From NCBI RefSeq assembly GCF_018873765.1, contig NC_057924.1, positions 6,200,001 to 6,264,000 of the forward strand: a DNA stretch of 64,000 nucleotides. The letters are read 5' to 3'. The translations under genes and the position numbers were made by a program. Below are positions 11,120 to 52,940 of this stretch, in pieces. Below the pieces are notes generated by a model, which saw nothing but the letters and a program-made list of their open reading frames with translations, was not told the origin of the DNA and did not search any database. This stretch comes from Telopea speciosissima. Taxonomy: Eukaryota; Streptophyta; Magnoliopsida; Proteales; Proteaceae. Each line of letters begins with the position of its first letter. Within the stretch, counting starts at the first letter, position 1.

Positions 11120-11281
11120 CATCTTTGAAAAGCTCCCAGTTTTTAGTCTTTCTCTCTCTCTCTCTCCCTCGTTGCGTTAATATTGCAGAGAACCACCAAA
11201 CTCATCTGCATAACCTGAAGCTTCCCTCCTCTCCTTCCTTGTCACTATTTTTGCGTTTTCAGAGGGATCAGAGTGTCAGAC

Positions 11282-11851
11282 ATGGCAGGTAGGTATAACT
11301 TTTTCAACGCTGGTAGCGGTGTGAGATCAATCAGAGGCGAAGAATTTGAAGAAGAAGATGTTTGGTCGGTTGCTATGGACATAAACAACTTTACTGGCAA
11401 GGTTAGAAAACCCAAACTGGAAAAGTCCTCTGTTTCTTCTAGTCCAACTGTAAGACGCCTACCAAGTGCTTCAAGAATGATCCCAAAGACTAACAATTCA
11501 TCGGAGTCTCAGGAGGCCAAGGTTATGCAGCAATATTCAGCACCTGTGAACATACCAGACTGGTCTAAAATCTATCGGAAGAATCCAAAGAAGGAAGCCG
11601 ATGATAGCTTTGGGTATGGTGGATCTACTGTACGTTATGGTGGGGGATTTGAAGGAATTAATGGTGATAGTGATGATGCTAATGATGATCATGAAGATCT
11701 TATCCCACCCCATGAATGGATAGCTAAGAAGCTGGCAATGACTCAGATTTCTTCTTTCTCTGTGTGTGAAGGTGTTGGGAGGACACTGAAAGGGAGAGAT
11801 CTCAGCAAAGTAAGGGATGCTGTTCTTACCCGAACTGGCTTCATAGAATAA
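11282..11851 (+). CDS. Senescence regulator S40 family protein (DUF584)
   Basis: Single-exon gene of 189 codons. The open frame extends 9 bases upstream, but the first ATG is at 11282, so the product starts [16 protein letters not shown]. An acidic FEEEDVWSV segment (residues 20-30) and a Ser/Pro-rich middle are followed by [15 protein letters not shown] (about 88-105) and an acidic stretch. The C-terminal block runs [13 protein letters not shown] and then [24 protein letters not shown], which is the hallmark of the S40/DUF584 family. Members known from barley and Arabidopsis are nuclear proteins linked to leaf senescence and stress; the exact biochemical role is unknown. The leader is CT-rich. 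No frameshift or truncation is visible, and the length is within the family range. Confidence 0.92.
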
Positions 11852-15888: not shown

Positions 15889-16812
15889 TCAAAGTTTTAT
15901 TGAATAGTGAAGAATGCTTGAAACGTTCTCAACCATTGGTTGATTATTGAAGCATTCCAATTCCTTTAGAGCCAAGGATCTAAGGCTCTCCGCTATTTCC
16001 TCTTCTTGTCCACCATGATCACCAACCGTTGATGTCACCATCATCCCATGTATCATCCCCGCATAGCGTCCAAACCGTCTCAGGCTCTCTATTTCCTCTT
16101 TAGTAGCTCCCCCTAAGATGGCCCCACACGCAGCTCCACATGCGTAGAGCAATCCTTCTTTCTTCTCATCAGTATCACCGTCCGATGTTGATCCACTGCA
16201 CCGTAACTGCAGGTATTGTTCCTTCACCATTCCTTGTGCACCCATTGCACGTGTGATCTCAATGATCACTTTCAAGATCCGTTCTGCTATATCATCATCT
16301 AGACGGTGATGCTCTGAGGGTCTAGCTAACAATTCGTACCCGAAACTTAAGATGCCATCACCCGTAAGGAGCTCGATGCCTGCAGGGTATGAATGATGGT
16401 GGTCCCTATTTTTAGTGGGCCCCACCCCCTTGGGCCGATCCGATAGTGGGAGGCGCTGGTGCACCACTGTTGCTGCATTCATGAGATGCAGCGCTGAGGC
16501 TGCAGGGATGGCTTTTTCCGGTTGGCCTCCGACGAGTTCGCAGGCGGCGACGGTTAGGGCTGGAGCCATGGTTGTTGGGGTGGAGAAGACCAAATAGTGC
16601 ATGGGCTTGTACACTAAAAAGGGTGGGCGTATTTGGACGGCTTGCTTGAGGTGGGCTTCGATGTCGGCGCTTATGGAAGCCCAGTATGATTGCTGGTTCT
16701 GTGGCATAGCGACCTTCATGGGTTTATTATGATTCTGGGGTAGTGAAAGGTGAGGAGCTTCGGTAGAAAGAGAGGTCATGAGATGCCTCAGAGGTGCTGC
16801 TGAGCCTTCCAT
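15889..16812 (-). CDS. GGR: Heterodimeric geranylgeranyl diphosphate synthase, small subunit (type II)
   Basis: Intronless gene of 307 codons. It belongs to the polyprenyl synthase fold but lacks both Asp-rich catalytic motifs: where the first should be it reads MNAATVVHQRLPLSDRPKG (111-129), as in the non-catalytic plastid small subunits that bind a catalytic GGPPS and steer product choice towards chlorophyll and carotenoid precursors or GPP. Supporting blocks are VAACELVGGQPEKA (88-101), GIELLTGDGILSFGYELLA (145-163), ILKVIIEITRAMGAQGM (179-195) and ACGAACGAILGGATKEEIESL (224-244). The second CxxxC motif is present (C225-C229). At the first site only one Cys remains (TVAAC, T87-C91). The region 198-222 appears shorter than in relatives. 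The N-terminal about 40 residues are rich in Ser/Thr/Pro and poor in acids, consistent with a plastid transit peptide. The start is the first ATG after a CT-rich leader. Note that the Arabidopsis symbol GGR derives from an old misnomer (reductase). Confidence 0.9.
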   Translation of the reverse strand: MEGSAAPLRHLMTSLSTEAPHLSLPQNHNKPMKVAMPQNQQSYWASISADIEAHLKQAVQIRPPFLVYKPMHYLVFSTPTTMAPALTVAACELVGGQPEKAIPAASALHLMNAATVVHQRLPLSDRPKGVGPTKNRDHHHSYPAGIELLTGDGILSFGYELLARPSEHHRLDDDIAERILKVIIEITRAMGAQGMVKEQYLQLRCSGSTSDGDTDEKKEGLLYACGAACGAILGGATKEEIESLRRFGRYAGMIHGMMVTSTVGDHGGQEEEIAESLRSLALKELECFNNQPMVENVSSILHYSIKL

Positions 16813-16925
16813 TAGAGCTTGGAAGAGTGGGTGAATGGGAAAGAGAAGAACTGAAACTCAAGTGAGCTCGAGTCCAGAGGAGACGAGTGAATGAAGCTGA
16901 GAAGACAAGAAGAGAGGGGCTCTCT

Positions 16926-19423: not shown

Positions 19424-19669
19424 TGTTAATCCATCCCTGCACTATTAGTGTATCCAATGTTCCTTTTTTCATTTGTCCTCCAATAAGGTTTGATATCATT
19501 GTTTCAAAAATCGATTTTGGATAGGCCGAATTGGTCAATTCAAACTCAAATCGATTGTGATCTTTTTTCTACTTTGACAATTTGGAATTCATATGAATGA
19601 TACCATTAACCACATTGCCATTTGTGTGACGTGCAGACATAGAGGGGAACCCATTCCCAAAAAAAATTT

Positions 19670-19844
19670 GGGAAATTTATACGTACCACCCCTGAGGTTT
19701 GACAAAAGGATATTTTCACCTCCCAATTTTGGAAAATTCTGTGTACCCCCCTGAGGTTTGCAAATGGTAACAAATAAACCCATTCCGTTAGTTTATGCTT
19801 AACACTATTAAAATCAAAAGATAAAATGACAAAAATGCCCCTTC
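19670..19844 (+). repeat. Left terminal inverted repeat of the Pack-MULE
   Basis: High similarity to the reverse complement of 21513-21684 for the first about 130 bases (including GGATATTTTCACCTCCCA and TTTGCAAATGGTAACAAATA), weaker up to TGCCCCTTC at 19838-19844. Confidence 0.8.
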
Positions 19845-19939
19845 AAGGGAAAAAAAAAAAAAAAAAAAACGTGCAACTCATCTTTCCCAATTGGATGAGT
19901 TACAGGTATCCCCATCGATTGCTCTATCTATGGCTTCTA

Positions 19940-20218
19940 ATGGAACACTTCAAGCCTGGCAAAGAGCTTGAAACACTTAAGTTGAAGGGATCTAAATCAG
20001 AGCACAAAAATAATGACGCAGTGACGACTGATGAGGATTTGGATTTGACGAACCGGTGGAGAACCATCAGGAAGGTTGAGGCGCCAGTTTCTGTTTCTGA
20101 AAATATTGACGAAGAGGTTCTTCTCCTTCTCGCCACCTTTGAATCGAAATCACCGTCTCTTTCTTCAATTAAAACACATGACAGCGTTTATTATTCGTCC
20201 ACTGAAGCTTCCCTTTGA
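19940..20218 (+). other. Unidentified open frame inside the Pack-MULE
   Basis: 92 codons from ATG 19940; product begins MEHFKPGKELETLKLKGSKS, is hydrophilic, with an acidic VTTDEDLDLTNRW part and a Ser-rich tail. I recognise no family. It may be a captured gene fragment or chance frame; a GC- and codon-use check against real genes would help decide. Confidence 0.3.
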
Positions 20219-20526
20219 GCCTTAGCCGCGTCAGATTTCCATGACAGACACCTGTTCGAATATGGTTAGGGTTTCTTCCTCGCGTAATTCCTATCTTTGA
20301 TTCTTTTATCGTTACACACACACAGACAGAGACGAACGAATTAACTTGAGGAACCGAAACATTTCGATTTGTTTTTGTTATGTTGTAATAATAAAAAACA
20401 GAGAAATCTTAAGGTTGCAGAGGGAGAGGTTTTTGCTGAGAGAAGCTCTACTTTCTCTTTTTTTCTTCAGTGATGAATAGCCAACAGCTATCGATTTCTC
20501 AAAAAACTAAGAGCAACCTATTTCGT

Positions 20527-20685
20527 TCAGAGAGGTTTTTCAATAAAACCTAAAAAAAAAAAGTTAATCTTGCCAGTTACCACCTGGTCTTTATTTGTTA
20601 TTCTCAGAGAGAAGAAGCTTTTCAGTAAAACCTAAGAAAAAGCTAATCTTGCAGGTTACAACCTGGTCTTTATTTGTTATTCTCT
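20527..20685. repeat. 79-bp tandem duplication inside the Pack-MULE
   Basis: The phrase ACCTGGTCTTTATTTGTTAT occurs at 20582 and 20661, each preceded by an AAAACCTAA...TTAATCTTGC-like segment. Two units with moderate divergence. Confidence 0.7.
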
Positions 20686-20699
20686 GTTTTAATCCTTTT

Positions 20700-20975
20700 T
20701 CCAGCTCTGTTCAATCTCTCTTCTCTCTATCGTCCTCTGTCTTATTCTCTGTATTAATCCAACTCTGTTCAATCTCTCTTTCTCTCTGTCGTCCTCTATC
20801 TCTGTTGTTTGAGTCACTACTCTGTTTTTTTAGCTTATCTTCCACACCACCACCTCTTATTCTCTGTTTTAATGAATTTTTCAGCTCTGTTCAATCTCTC
20901 TTTCTCTCTGTTGTCCTCTGTCTTTGTTGTTTGAATCCCAACTCTGTTTTTTCAGCTTATCTTCCACACCATGTC
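20700..20975. repeat. Pyrimidine-rich imperfect tandem repeats inside the Pack-MULE
   Basis: CTCTGTTCAATCTCTCTT recurs at about 20705, 20763 and 20885, and TTTTTT(C)AGCTTATCTTCCACACCA at about 20827 and 20948. The 122-bp unit is duplicated, and the strand is strongly CT-biased like a 5' leader, which suggests a captured and amplified UTR or promoter segment. Confidence 0.65.
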
Positions 20976-21186
20976 CACTAAGAGTTCTCGCAGTTGCAGC
21001 TCGTTGCAATGAGATGAGGCTCAAGGCTGGTGATCAGGTCTACTCAATTCTTTTCTTCTTTTTTTGTTCCAACTGTTAGGTTCAGTTTGATGAGATTTGT
21101 CTATAAAACTTCGTAGCTCAAGATCTGATATTGAATTTGAAACCCTAACTCGTAACTCAAAGAATTCCAGAAGAGATCTCAGAGAA

Positions 21187-21465
21187 ATGGCGAAGTCGAA
21201 GAACCACACTGCGCATAACCAGTCACACAAGGCTCACAAGAATGGAATTAAGAAGCCCAAGAGGCACAGACACACATCCACCAAAGGAATGGCTCCCAAG
21301 TTCTTGAGGAACCAGAGGCATGCTAGGAAGCACAACAACAAGACCGGTGGATCCGGGACCGAGCAGAAACAAAAGAAAAACCCTTATGGTTTTGAAACCT
21401 GCAACTCATCTTCCCCAATTCGATTGGGGAAGATGAGTTGCAGGTTTTTTTTTTCTCTTTTATAA
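21187..21465 (+). pseudogene. RPL29: Intronless 60S ribosomal protein L29 (eL29) copy with extended C-terminus
   Basis: Frame opens [20 protein letters not shown], followed by [13 protein letters not shown] and [16 protein letters not shown], the near-complete eL29 sequence, a small basic protein of the large ribosomal subunit usually about 60 residues in plants. Here the frame runs 92 codons: after [11 protein letters not shown] it continues into [13 protein letters not shown] and then into palindromic element DNA, stopping at TAA 21463-21465. Two normally invariant positions look changed (A for D in KGM-D-PKF, H for Y in NQR-Y-A). No intron interrupts the coding part. It sits wholly inside the Pack-MULE, so I regard it as a captured copy. 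It could still be transcribed, and the frame is open, so pseudogene is a judgement. Confidence 0.8.
21395..21447. repeat. Perfect 25-bp palindrome arms, 3-base loop
   Basis: AAACCTGCAACTCATC and TTCCCCAAT are followed by TCG and the exact reverse complement. It overlaps the end of the RPL29-like frame. A decayed related hairpin (GTGCAACTCATCTTTCCC and GGATGAGTTACAGG) sits at the opposite end of the element near 19871-19907, showing it belongs to the element's sub-terminal DNA. Confidence 0.9.
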
Positions 21466-21512
21466 GGGTAATTTTGTCCATTCACCTCTTTTTTTTTTTA
21501 AGGTTCTTCTTA

Positions 21513-21684
21513 GAAGGGCAATTCCGTCAATTCAAGTCTAATTTTGAACAGTGTTAGTCATGAACTGACGGAATGGGCTTATTTGTTACCATTTGCAAAC
21601 CTCAGGGGTACACAGAATTTTCCAAAACTGGGAGGTGAAAATATCCTTTCATCAAACCTCAGGGGTGGTATGTGTAAATTTCCC
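21513..21684 (-). repeat. Right terminal inverted repeat of the Pack-MULE
   Basis: Inverted partner of 19670-19844; ends GGTATGTGTAAATTTCCC at the element edge. Confidence 0.8.
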
Positions 21685-21839
21685 AAAAAATTCACTTCCC
21701 CCTTGTAATCCATTGGAAACAAAGTTATCAAGAAAACTTTATGAACATGTTGTCTATTGCTTGTGTAATTATTAAGTTGTTTTTCACTCCAACCCAATAT
21801 AGCACACATCAGAATAACCATTTGAAAATGATCAAGGCC

Positions 21840-22690
21840 AATCAAGGTCAGTCAGGCTCGACCCTGAGGGCGGGTCAGGGTTGAATTTTTTTGATCCCGA
21901 GTCAGGGTCGGGTCGGGCCTGGGCCTAACTAAGGGGATTTAGGGTTGGGCTAAGGTTCTATAAAGTCCGGCCCAACCCGATCCTGTTGCAACCCTAGTTA
22001 AAAACAATGGTTTATTTAACTGACTATATATCTCTTTTTCTCTCCCAAACTTCGATCGACTTGATTCTTTCATCAACGCAAAGCTGACTCTTAGAGCTAC
22101 ATTTCTCATGATATGATTTTCAACCTAGGTTCAATGCACGGACCTGAAATTGAGCTACAAACTGAAGCATCTAATGAAAAGGGTTTCTAAAGCGAAGACT
22201 CTCAATTTCGACTGAGCATGCATCCCCCCAGTAGTGTGTTGGTTAGGGCTGCAACGGGGTTGGGTTGGGTCAGGCCAAGCCTTTTAAAACCCCAGCCCAA
22301 CCTTAACTCCCCTTAGCTGGGCCCAAGCCCGGCCTGGCCCTGACTTAGGGCCAAAAAATCCAACCCTGACCCACCCTCAGGGTCGAGCCGAGCTAACTCT
22401 GATTGACCCTGACCATGGGAGGGAAGGGAGATGCATGAGCTGGCTATGTTGGGGAAAAAGAAGAAGGAAAAGAAAAAAAAAAAAAAAAAAGAAATACCAT
22501 GAAGAAGAAGAAGATAGGGTCAGGTTAGGTCGAGTCGGGCTCAACCCGAGACCTCAACCCTGGCCTAGTCCGACCCTAACTCAGGGCCAGAAATTCCCAA
22601 CCCTGACCTGCCCTCAGGGCAAGATATCTCAACCCAAGCCCTATTTAGGCTCAGGTTGGGTCAGGGCCAAACTTGCACCCCTAGTGTTGA
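21840..22690. repeat. GGGTCGGG / GGCCCAACCC-type degenerate repeats
   Basis: Two blocks of short words (GGGTCGGGTCGGGCC, GGCCCAACCCGA, CCCTGACCC) occur, with edges TTGCAACCCTAG near 21990, TTAGGGCTGCAACGGGG near 22240 and TTGCACCCCTAG near 22672. The two arms of the second block are rough inverted copies. No coding signal. Confidence 0.6.
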
Positions 22691-51595: not shown

Positions 51596-52940
51596 AAGAT
51601 TCTTGACAAGAGATTAATTACCTTAAATAAGTAAGATCCTTCTTTCCTTCTTTCCTTCTTCATCATTGGTTAGCTGTACCCACATGTTTCATGTGCTGTA
51701 ATGGGGTGGCAAAACATCTCTCCCATTCATGGGTTCCACTAGTCTGTGATAAGAAACAAAAACTCTACCCTCAAAATCCCATTTTAGGGAAAATATCCTA
51801 AGTGTTCGACTTAGAATATACAAAAAACAGTTTTGAATAACAAAATCTTATTATTATTATTTTCTATGCAAGGATAATTCCCCCAACCTAACCCAACTTC
51901 CCTACATGCTATCAGTTGTAGGCATAGAGCTGGGTTATCCATCCTTGCTCTGCCATTGTTGTGGTACTTGCACAAAAAAAAAAAAAAAAAAAAACCTTGG
52001 TACCCACCTGTTGGATTAAATGCTTTAACAGTACCAATAAGAATATCACAAGGTGCCCTGATAAAAAAAAATGTTGTTGCAGAGGATTTGCTGCAAGGTA
52101 CCTTCTGAAGCTTCACCTTTGAACTTTGAACTTTGAAGAGAAGAGTTGGAGCTCAGCAATGGATAATCCTTCATCTTCATTTGATAAAAATTGCAGAAAA
52201 TAAAAAATGGGCCAAAGAAAGACAAAAAAAGAGGAAGTTAAGCCAGAAGACAATGTGAACGATTTGATTTCCAATATGAAGAACAAGAATGGAGAACCAC
52301 GTGATATTGGCACGGCTCAATCAAATAACAGAGCCCGAATCATAACGAGAACTGCTTTCTAATTGAACCGGACCAATATCCCGTTAAACCAATCCATTAT
52401 TCTAAGATTCAATCCTTAAAAAGCAAAGCTATACAGGTTCAAGATTCACACAAACCAATTATCAAACAAGTGATGAACAACAAGTTCTGTAAACAAGGAA
52501 AACAGAGGAAGAAATTAATGGATGGAAATGGGGGAAAACTGTGTTGTTCTGCAAGTGAAGCAGAGGCAAGTAAGGAAGGAACAAATGTTCCATGAGAATT
52601 TATCTTTTTATGAGAAACACAAGGGGAGTGGGGAAGAACTTAATTTGAAAGAAGTGCTGCATTAAATTCTACAACGACCCATCAGGAAAGGAGGTTGTGA
52701 GTATTAATTAAATGAAAAAAATTGGTACTAAAAATGGGATCATAATAAATAAGGAAAAGCTCACCGAATTACAATATATATTGGATTCCTCAGTGAGCTT
52801 TTATTTTAGTATTTATGAGATTTTAATGAGATTGCCGTGAAGAAGGGACATACAAGTTGGTAACTTTCTTATCAATCAGCTTTTCCACGAGGCCCAACTG
52901 CCAACCCAACTTCTAGCTTCCTTATTTCTGTCAATTGGTC
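51596..52940. other. Gene-free stretch
   Basis: A 38-bp direct duplication (ACCTTAAATAAGTAAGAT at 51583 and 51621) is present. Frames at 51811-52313 show no family resemblance. An A-run lies near 51974-51993. Confidence 0.45.

Follow-up and report, generated by a model that had tools for sequence, protein, structure and literature searches.

How a plant DNA transposon came to carry a gene for a ribosomal protein is the question raised by a 2,015-bp segment (positions 19670-21684) of the window, by which we mean the whole 64,000-nucleotide stretch of Telopea speciosissima DNA analyzed here (C9:6200001-6264000). An earlier note, made from this stretch alone, had read the segment as a Pack-MULE, that is, a Mutator-like element (MULE) carrying host-gene cargo, in this case a captured ribosomal protein L29 (RPL29) gene. 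The genome searched comprises 822,943,500 bases in 1,287 contigs (approximately 823 Mb). L-numbers denote loci fetched from this same genome, and C-numbers denote its contigs.

The window element and its family

The segment is bounded by terminal inverted repeats (TIRs). The left TIR (19670-19868, plus strand) opens with GGGAAATTTATA and matches many elements of the same family. It was aligned with the right TIR (21489-21684, minus strand, read from 21684 to 21489) over 199 bases at 82.9% identity (E = 1e-53), where about 175 bp had been claimed, and over their outer 83 bp the two ends show 94% complementarity. Comparison of the flanks revealed the 9-mer AAAAAATTT on the left (19661-19669) and AAAAAATTC on the right (21685-21693). 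These presumptive target-site duplications (TSDs) are identical at 8 of 9 positions, confirming the single mismatch noted previously, and together give the target site AAAAAATT(T/C). Of 35 open reading frames (ORFs) of at least 25 aa listed around the element, 3 internal ones were scanned with Pfam, and no transposase domain was found in them, as the earlier reading had also noted. At approximately 2.0 kb, the element is too short to hold a full transposase, and in this it has the non-autonomous makeup of a Pack-MULE.

Several other features of the window were recorded. Beside the element, at 21828-22416, lie two inverted-repeat pairs with arms of 64 and 97 nt, rich in GGGTCGGG/GGGTTGGG, with related direct copies nearby. 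Long open frames are found at 11219-11848 (plus strand), which by eye we take to resemble an S40-type senescence regulator, and at 15892-16857 (minus strand), which by eye presumably resembles a geranylgeranyl diphosphate synthase small subunit; the element is situated approximately 2.8 kb upstream of the latter. A MIR171_1 precursor (Rfam) at 52291-52392 scored above the gathering threshold on both strands, with 85.9 bits on the minus strand and 59.8 bits on the plus strand.

A genome search with the left end, in which 40 of 2,168 candidates were scored, gave a match for all 40, the window included; the end sequence of the family is GGGWAATTTACA. Twenty of the 39 matches outside the window were fetched with their surroundings, and in 19 of these 20 a second, inverted end was present within approximately 1.1 to 2.1 kb. 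The same ends therefore recur across the genome, and the long TIRs characteristic of MULEs are seen both here and in the window (199 bp, 83%). Exact 9-bp TSDs flank 19 of the 25 elements measured, compared with 0 of 600 controls in which left and right flanks were mispaired; when one mismatch was allowed, the corresponding figures were 21 of 25 and 8 of 600. This length falls within the 8 to 11 bp that an excerpt of PMC6446971 gives for MULE target-site duplications. The sample consisted of the window, 19 of the loci L009-L028, L031, L032, L033, L038, and L039, leaving out L034 and L040 (in each of which one end lies at the limit of the retrieved sequence), L019 (one end), and L043-L046. Poor TSDs were found at L011 (3 mismatches), L014 (7), L024 (6), and L038 (8), the last being entered as a miss with its ends perhaps misplaced. 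Among the nine RPL29-bearing elements with measured flanks, six have exact TSDs, the others being the window (1 mismatch), L011, and L014.

The interiors of these elements were then compared. Two further multi-copy groups, L013/L018/L027 and L020/L024/L025, were recognized beyond the RPL29 lineage; each of the remaining eight elements that were fetched has no more than 22% of its interior in common with any other element. A Pfam scan of cargo ORFs matched host families in 5 of 10 cases and no family in the other 5. The matches are fragments of an aquaporin (MIP; L021, 501-2392), a P450 (L023, 501-1866), an LRR protein (L026), a GT47 protein (L016), and a legume lectin (L028). The aquaporin frame runs into a likely retained intron and resumes in another frame, and the L021 cargo appears on this basis to be unspliced, with one intron kept. 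Such varied host-gene pieces among elements with the same ends indicate a Pack-MULE family. The window element is a non-autonomous Mutator-like element in a large family of this kind, and its earlier assignment as a Pack-MULE is upheld by the TIRs, the 9-bp TSDs, the multiple copies, the varied host-gene cargo, and the presence elsewhere of RPL29 genes that lack these ends. The search for TIR copies with other cargo, which had been recommended at that time, is answered by the five elements with host-family matches.

These data also bear on the notion that no transposon is involved and that a duplicated RPL29 gene is enclosed in an inverted repeat by chance. In its favor, the TSD of the window, taken alone, is A/T-rich and imperfect; nothing else speaks for it. 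Elements that have the same ends and exact 9-bp TSDs but differ in their cargo speak against it, and the probability that we attach to a free-standing gene with chance repeats is negligible, the family data having ruled it out.

Among the fetched loci, no autonomous element sharing these ends was encountered. L019 has a single end in 8.6 kb and ORFs of 100 to 152 aa in which nothing was recognized by eye. Transposase genes matching PF10551 are abundant (150 of 827 candidates were scored), and none was linked to these ends; the model also matches in 3 of 14 control genomes. A tree of 13 right ends gave little resolution, with L038-L040 versus the rest as its only supported split, and the distances of the window in this tree (0.11 to 0.20) are probably inflated by the deletion that the window copy has undergone.

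The RPL29 cargo and its candidate parent genes

The RPL29 frame of the window starts at the ATG at 21187 and matches Pfam Ribosomal_L29e (E = 3e-22); its best PDB match is plant 60S L29 (4v7e; E = 5e-25). The frame had been correctly recognized before, but its native stop has been lost. A 54-nt deletion between two GGATCCGGGACCGAG repeats removed this stop, and the ORF (21187-21465, 92 aa) continues for 33 residues past codon 59 in sequence of the element (21364-21465).

A genome search with PF01779, in which all 26 candidates were scored and 0 of 14 control genomes matched, identified 12 RPL29 loci. Two are genes with introns, and the other 10 are spliced copies, each of which lies inside an element (the window, L009, L010, L011, L012, L014, and L031-L034), so that RPL29 is five times commoner inside transposons than as genes in this assembly. 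These 12 loci are the combined yield of the PF01779 search and a search with the cargo sequence, in which 40 of 1,065 candidates were scored. The two genes are located on C7 (53.56M; L029) and C4 (67.2M; L030). Each has two GT-AG introns, one in the 5' untranslated region (5'UTR; 92 bp in C7 and 89 bp in C4) and one in the coding sequence (CDS; 124 bp and 121 bp, respectively), at positions identical in the two genes. The comparison of introns with the parental genes, also advised by the earlier note, revealed that the exons are joined exactly at both intron positions in 10 of 10 element copies. In the window, the junctions fall at 21182/21183, within the 5'UTR (21141-21186), and at 21288/21289, within codons 1-59 (21187-21363). 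When the elements were queried with the RPL29 introns, even the best hit (14 nt, E = 0.048) was unconvincing. Since both introns are gone exactly at the splice junctions, we infer that the RPL29 cargo is derived from processed mRNA. The idea of a captured host gene thus holds as regards the capture, but the thing captured is a spliced copy.

The absence of introns is what would be expected of a processed retrocopy; the poly(A) tail and TSD of its own that mark the LINE type are lacking. The cargo also departs from the usual Pack-MULE property of being genomic-derived and intron-bearing. Retention of introns is usual in Pack-MULE cargo and is not part of the strict definition. Consistent with a Pack-MULE, RPL29 genes exist elsewhere without TIRs: no element ends (at least 30 nt, E 1e-4) were detected in 2.4 kb at the C7 gene or in 2.3 kb at the C4 gene. 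Between the majority CDS of the elements and that of the C7 gene, 4 of 186 sites differ, 3 of them synonymously and 1 nonsynonymously, and the 5'UTR of the elements is visibly further from both genes than the CDS is. Based on these comparisons, the parent is likely to have been either the C7 gene before a recent change or a third RPL29 gene that has been lost; because the 5'UTR diverges more than the CDS, the lost third gene may be the true parent.

The divergence of the 5'UTR from both genes would also fit a lost intermediate, namely, a free-standing RPL29 retrogene that was captured by a MULE and has since disappeared. This is a version of the explanation that we favor, not an alternative exclusive of it, and it calls for known steps only (retroposition and then genomic capture). 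Against it, every intronless copy among the 12 PF01779 loci sits within an element, a count that a badly decayed or unassembled copy would escape, decayed copies being below the reach of the search. We give this version even odds.

Joints, structural types, and the route of capture

RPL29 is present as cargo, as had been described, but it is not there alone: the cargo is chimeric, with at least three pieces. Comparison with other elements delimits a left module (19870-20168), a block of internally repeated, CT-rich, leader-like sequence (20182-20968), and fragment X (20968-21141), which is 91 to 92% identical to L035-L037 and adjoins the RPL29 5'UTR. The RPL29-bearing elements were sorted into structural types A (window, L010, and L031), B (L009, L014, and L032), C (L011 and L012), and D (L033 and L034). 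Positions 19670-20168 are common to the window, L009-L012, L014, L031, and L032, and positions 19670-20217 are common to the window and L038-L040; the last 56 nt of the left module (20113-20168) also match L035-L037. The block 20182-20968 occurs in type A, with a part of it (20256-20637) in L038-L040, and is related to sequences at C10:54585k (L041) and C10:13421k (L042). Of RPL29, L038-L040 keep only the 3' end, joined at AAG. The alignments suggest that type B arose from type C when approximately 441 nt were deleted at a short repeat of GAA, and that type A arose from type B by uptake of the block. In type C, fragment X remains collinear with the three loci L035-L037 for 595 bp. As L035 and L036 match family ends or the palindrome described below, they may be elements themselves and not the source gene of fragment X. 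We also noted that types C and D have the same RPL29 start nucleotide with unrelated sequence to its left, and that the left cargo of L033/L034 (L033, 544-1242) contains, by eye, a possible start MENRMPTVQGNLK followed by an apparent unspliced intron.

The joints of the RPL29 copies were informative. Nine of the 10 copies have the region of the native stop TAA and approximately 14 nt of 3'UTR; next comes a 31-nt piece copied a second time from the CDS end, which leads into element sequence. In L033 and L034, 23 nt of the CDS start stand directly before the RPL29 5'UTR border. The right-end module is also found without RPL29: at the join, L043 and L044 agree with it in every letter, and L045 and L046 align with it starting at that point. 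Comparison of the right join (GAG/AAACAAAAG) with its RPL29-free counterpart (ACAG/AAACAAAAG) revealed a 2-nt AG match. Neither a poly(A) tail nor an inner target duplication was present at the RPL29 3' end in the elements.

Direct LINE-type retroposition of RPL29 mRNA into an existing MULE, followed by amplification, would account for the exact splicing of both introns. However, the copy ends shortly into the 3'UTR with no poly(A), what follows is a re-copied piece of CDS and not a target duplication, and the right-end sequence resumes at the AG match; we regard this course as unlikely and rejected it for want of poly(A) and an inner duplication. Backward jumps, short microhomology, and the absence of poly(A) are in line with template switching and not with insertion of the LINE type into the element, which suggests that the joints were made by switching between templates and not by retroposition.

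We favor, with a probability of roughly 0.85, a non-autonomous Pack-MULE with a processed RPL29 copy in its cargo, presumably joined by template switching and amplified in trans. In such a scheme, DNA synthesis in an ancestral element undergoing repair or stalled replication would have switched onto reverse-transcribed RPL29, the template being either a since-lost retrocopy or free cDNA. At least one backward jump would have occurred during copying of RPL29, and synthesis would have returned to the element's right end through the 2-nt microhomology. Transposase acting in trans would then have amplified the chimera, and later deletions and exchange with sister elements would have produced the structural types. 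The narrower proposal that gap repair or stalled replication of the MULE took up the mature RPL29 message directly, with cDNA or RNA as the template and no genomic retrocopy in between, is one that we consider doubtful.

Further inspection of the ends revealed a conserved palindrome of approximately 50 nt at the inner TIR edges, formed by AAACCTGCAACTCATCTTCCCCAAT and its complement. Of 27 elements, 21 have a stem of at least 15 nt with no more than 2 mismatches on the left, and 22 have one on the right; in the control, one shuffled left-side sequence per element, the longest stem was 11. In the window, the RPL29 cargo sits between a decayed left palindrome region (19867-19911, with boundaries drawn by eye and a best stem of 10) and a right palindrome with perfect arms of 25 nt (21395-21447). 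A role for the palindrome in fork stalling or breakage is speculation.

State of the copies and comparison with known systems

A stop-terminated frame of 59 to 62 aa is kept in 7 of the 10 copies, and two are truncated, L010 by a premature stop at codon 43 and L033 by a frameshift. Compared with the majority sequence, codons 1-59 carry 18 nonsynonymous changes, 10 synonymous changes, and 1 stop, where random placement gives 10.9 ± 2.5 synonymous changes. Changes common to copies were entered once; the initial count of 31 events held two from the run-on (window codons 60 and 61), and restriction to codons 1-59 left 29. Twenty of these 29 are C-to-T or G-to-A. In type A, changes of this class affect 16 of 280 CG sites (5.7%), 26 of 507 CHG sites (5.1%), and 35 of 1,648 CHH sites (2.1%), with other changes at 52 of 6,122. 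C-to-T decay biased to CG and CHG is expected of methylated plant transposons.

The substitutions among the element copies look to be in keeping with neutrality. Together with the C-to-T excess at CG and CHG, this makes a functional protein from them unlikely, and the window copy is one decayed descendant, probably methylated and silent. A new RPL29 gene family, with copies that yield protein and are maintained by selection, would accord with the frames retained in seven copies and with the 92-aa run-on of the window. It is at odds with a synonymous fraction equal to the neutral expectation, with the lesions in L010 and L033, and with decay of the methylation type; we deem it highly improbable and set it aside, as no purifying selection was seen. 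The earlier suggestion of possible continued expression of the gene from its own leader is not supported: the leader carried is approximately 45 nt of 5'UTR with no RPL29 promoter, the native stop of the window copy is gone, two copies are truncated, and the substitutions look neutral.

Pack-MULEs of rice were reportedly treated by Jiang et al. in 2004. An excerpt of PMC12030055 describes the class in rice, maize, and Arabidopsis. Like those elements, that of Telopea has long TIRs and 9-bp TSDs, has shown no transposase, and occurs in multiple copies with chimeric host-gene cargo; unlike them, with their genomic fragments, it carries a complete spliced CDS. Spliced cargo is unusual because what cut-and-paste transposons copy is generally taken to be genomic DNA and not mRNA, and here ten of ten transposon copies of RPL29 link a DNA transposon to an RNA-derived template. 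By titles and the starts of abstracts, the literature searched held no report of a plant MULE with spliced cargo, although one may exist in print. In the available portion of PMC8277862, animal Pack-TIRs (FoSTeST) resemble the present case in template switching with microhomology and in re-mobilization. That portion also reports that MER20 holds the retrogene ARF6 almost completely, which according to its authors could also be a second retroposition. In the same survey, captures of multi-exon genes that had no introns were set aside as presumed retroduplicates, so that by its design, as set out there, the combination of a DNA transposon with an RNA-derived template was filtered out.

The closest precedent seen is a hAT element of Pseudocercospora fijiensis that, according to an extract of PMC6710886, contains an intronless histone H3 sequence, for which its authors propose capture of a transcript or retrocopy. 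As described in that extract, there too a two-intron housekeeping gene was taken without its introns and amplified, and the copies decayed. That system involves a fungus, the hAT superfamily, decay by RIP, and mostly the third exon only, whereas in Telopea the carrier is a plant MULE and several copies have near-complete ORFs. The cut points, the re-copied snippets, and the inner-edge palindrome allow a direct comparison of the capture mechanism among relatives. Pack-MULEs are known as a class; the intron-free RPL29 cargo is the new point.
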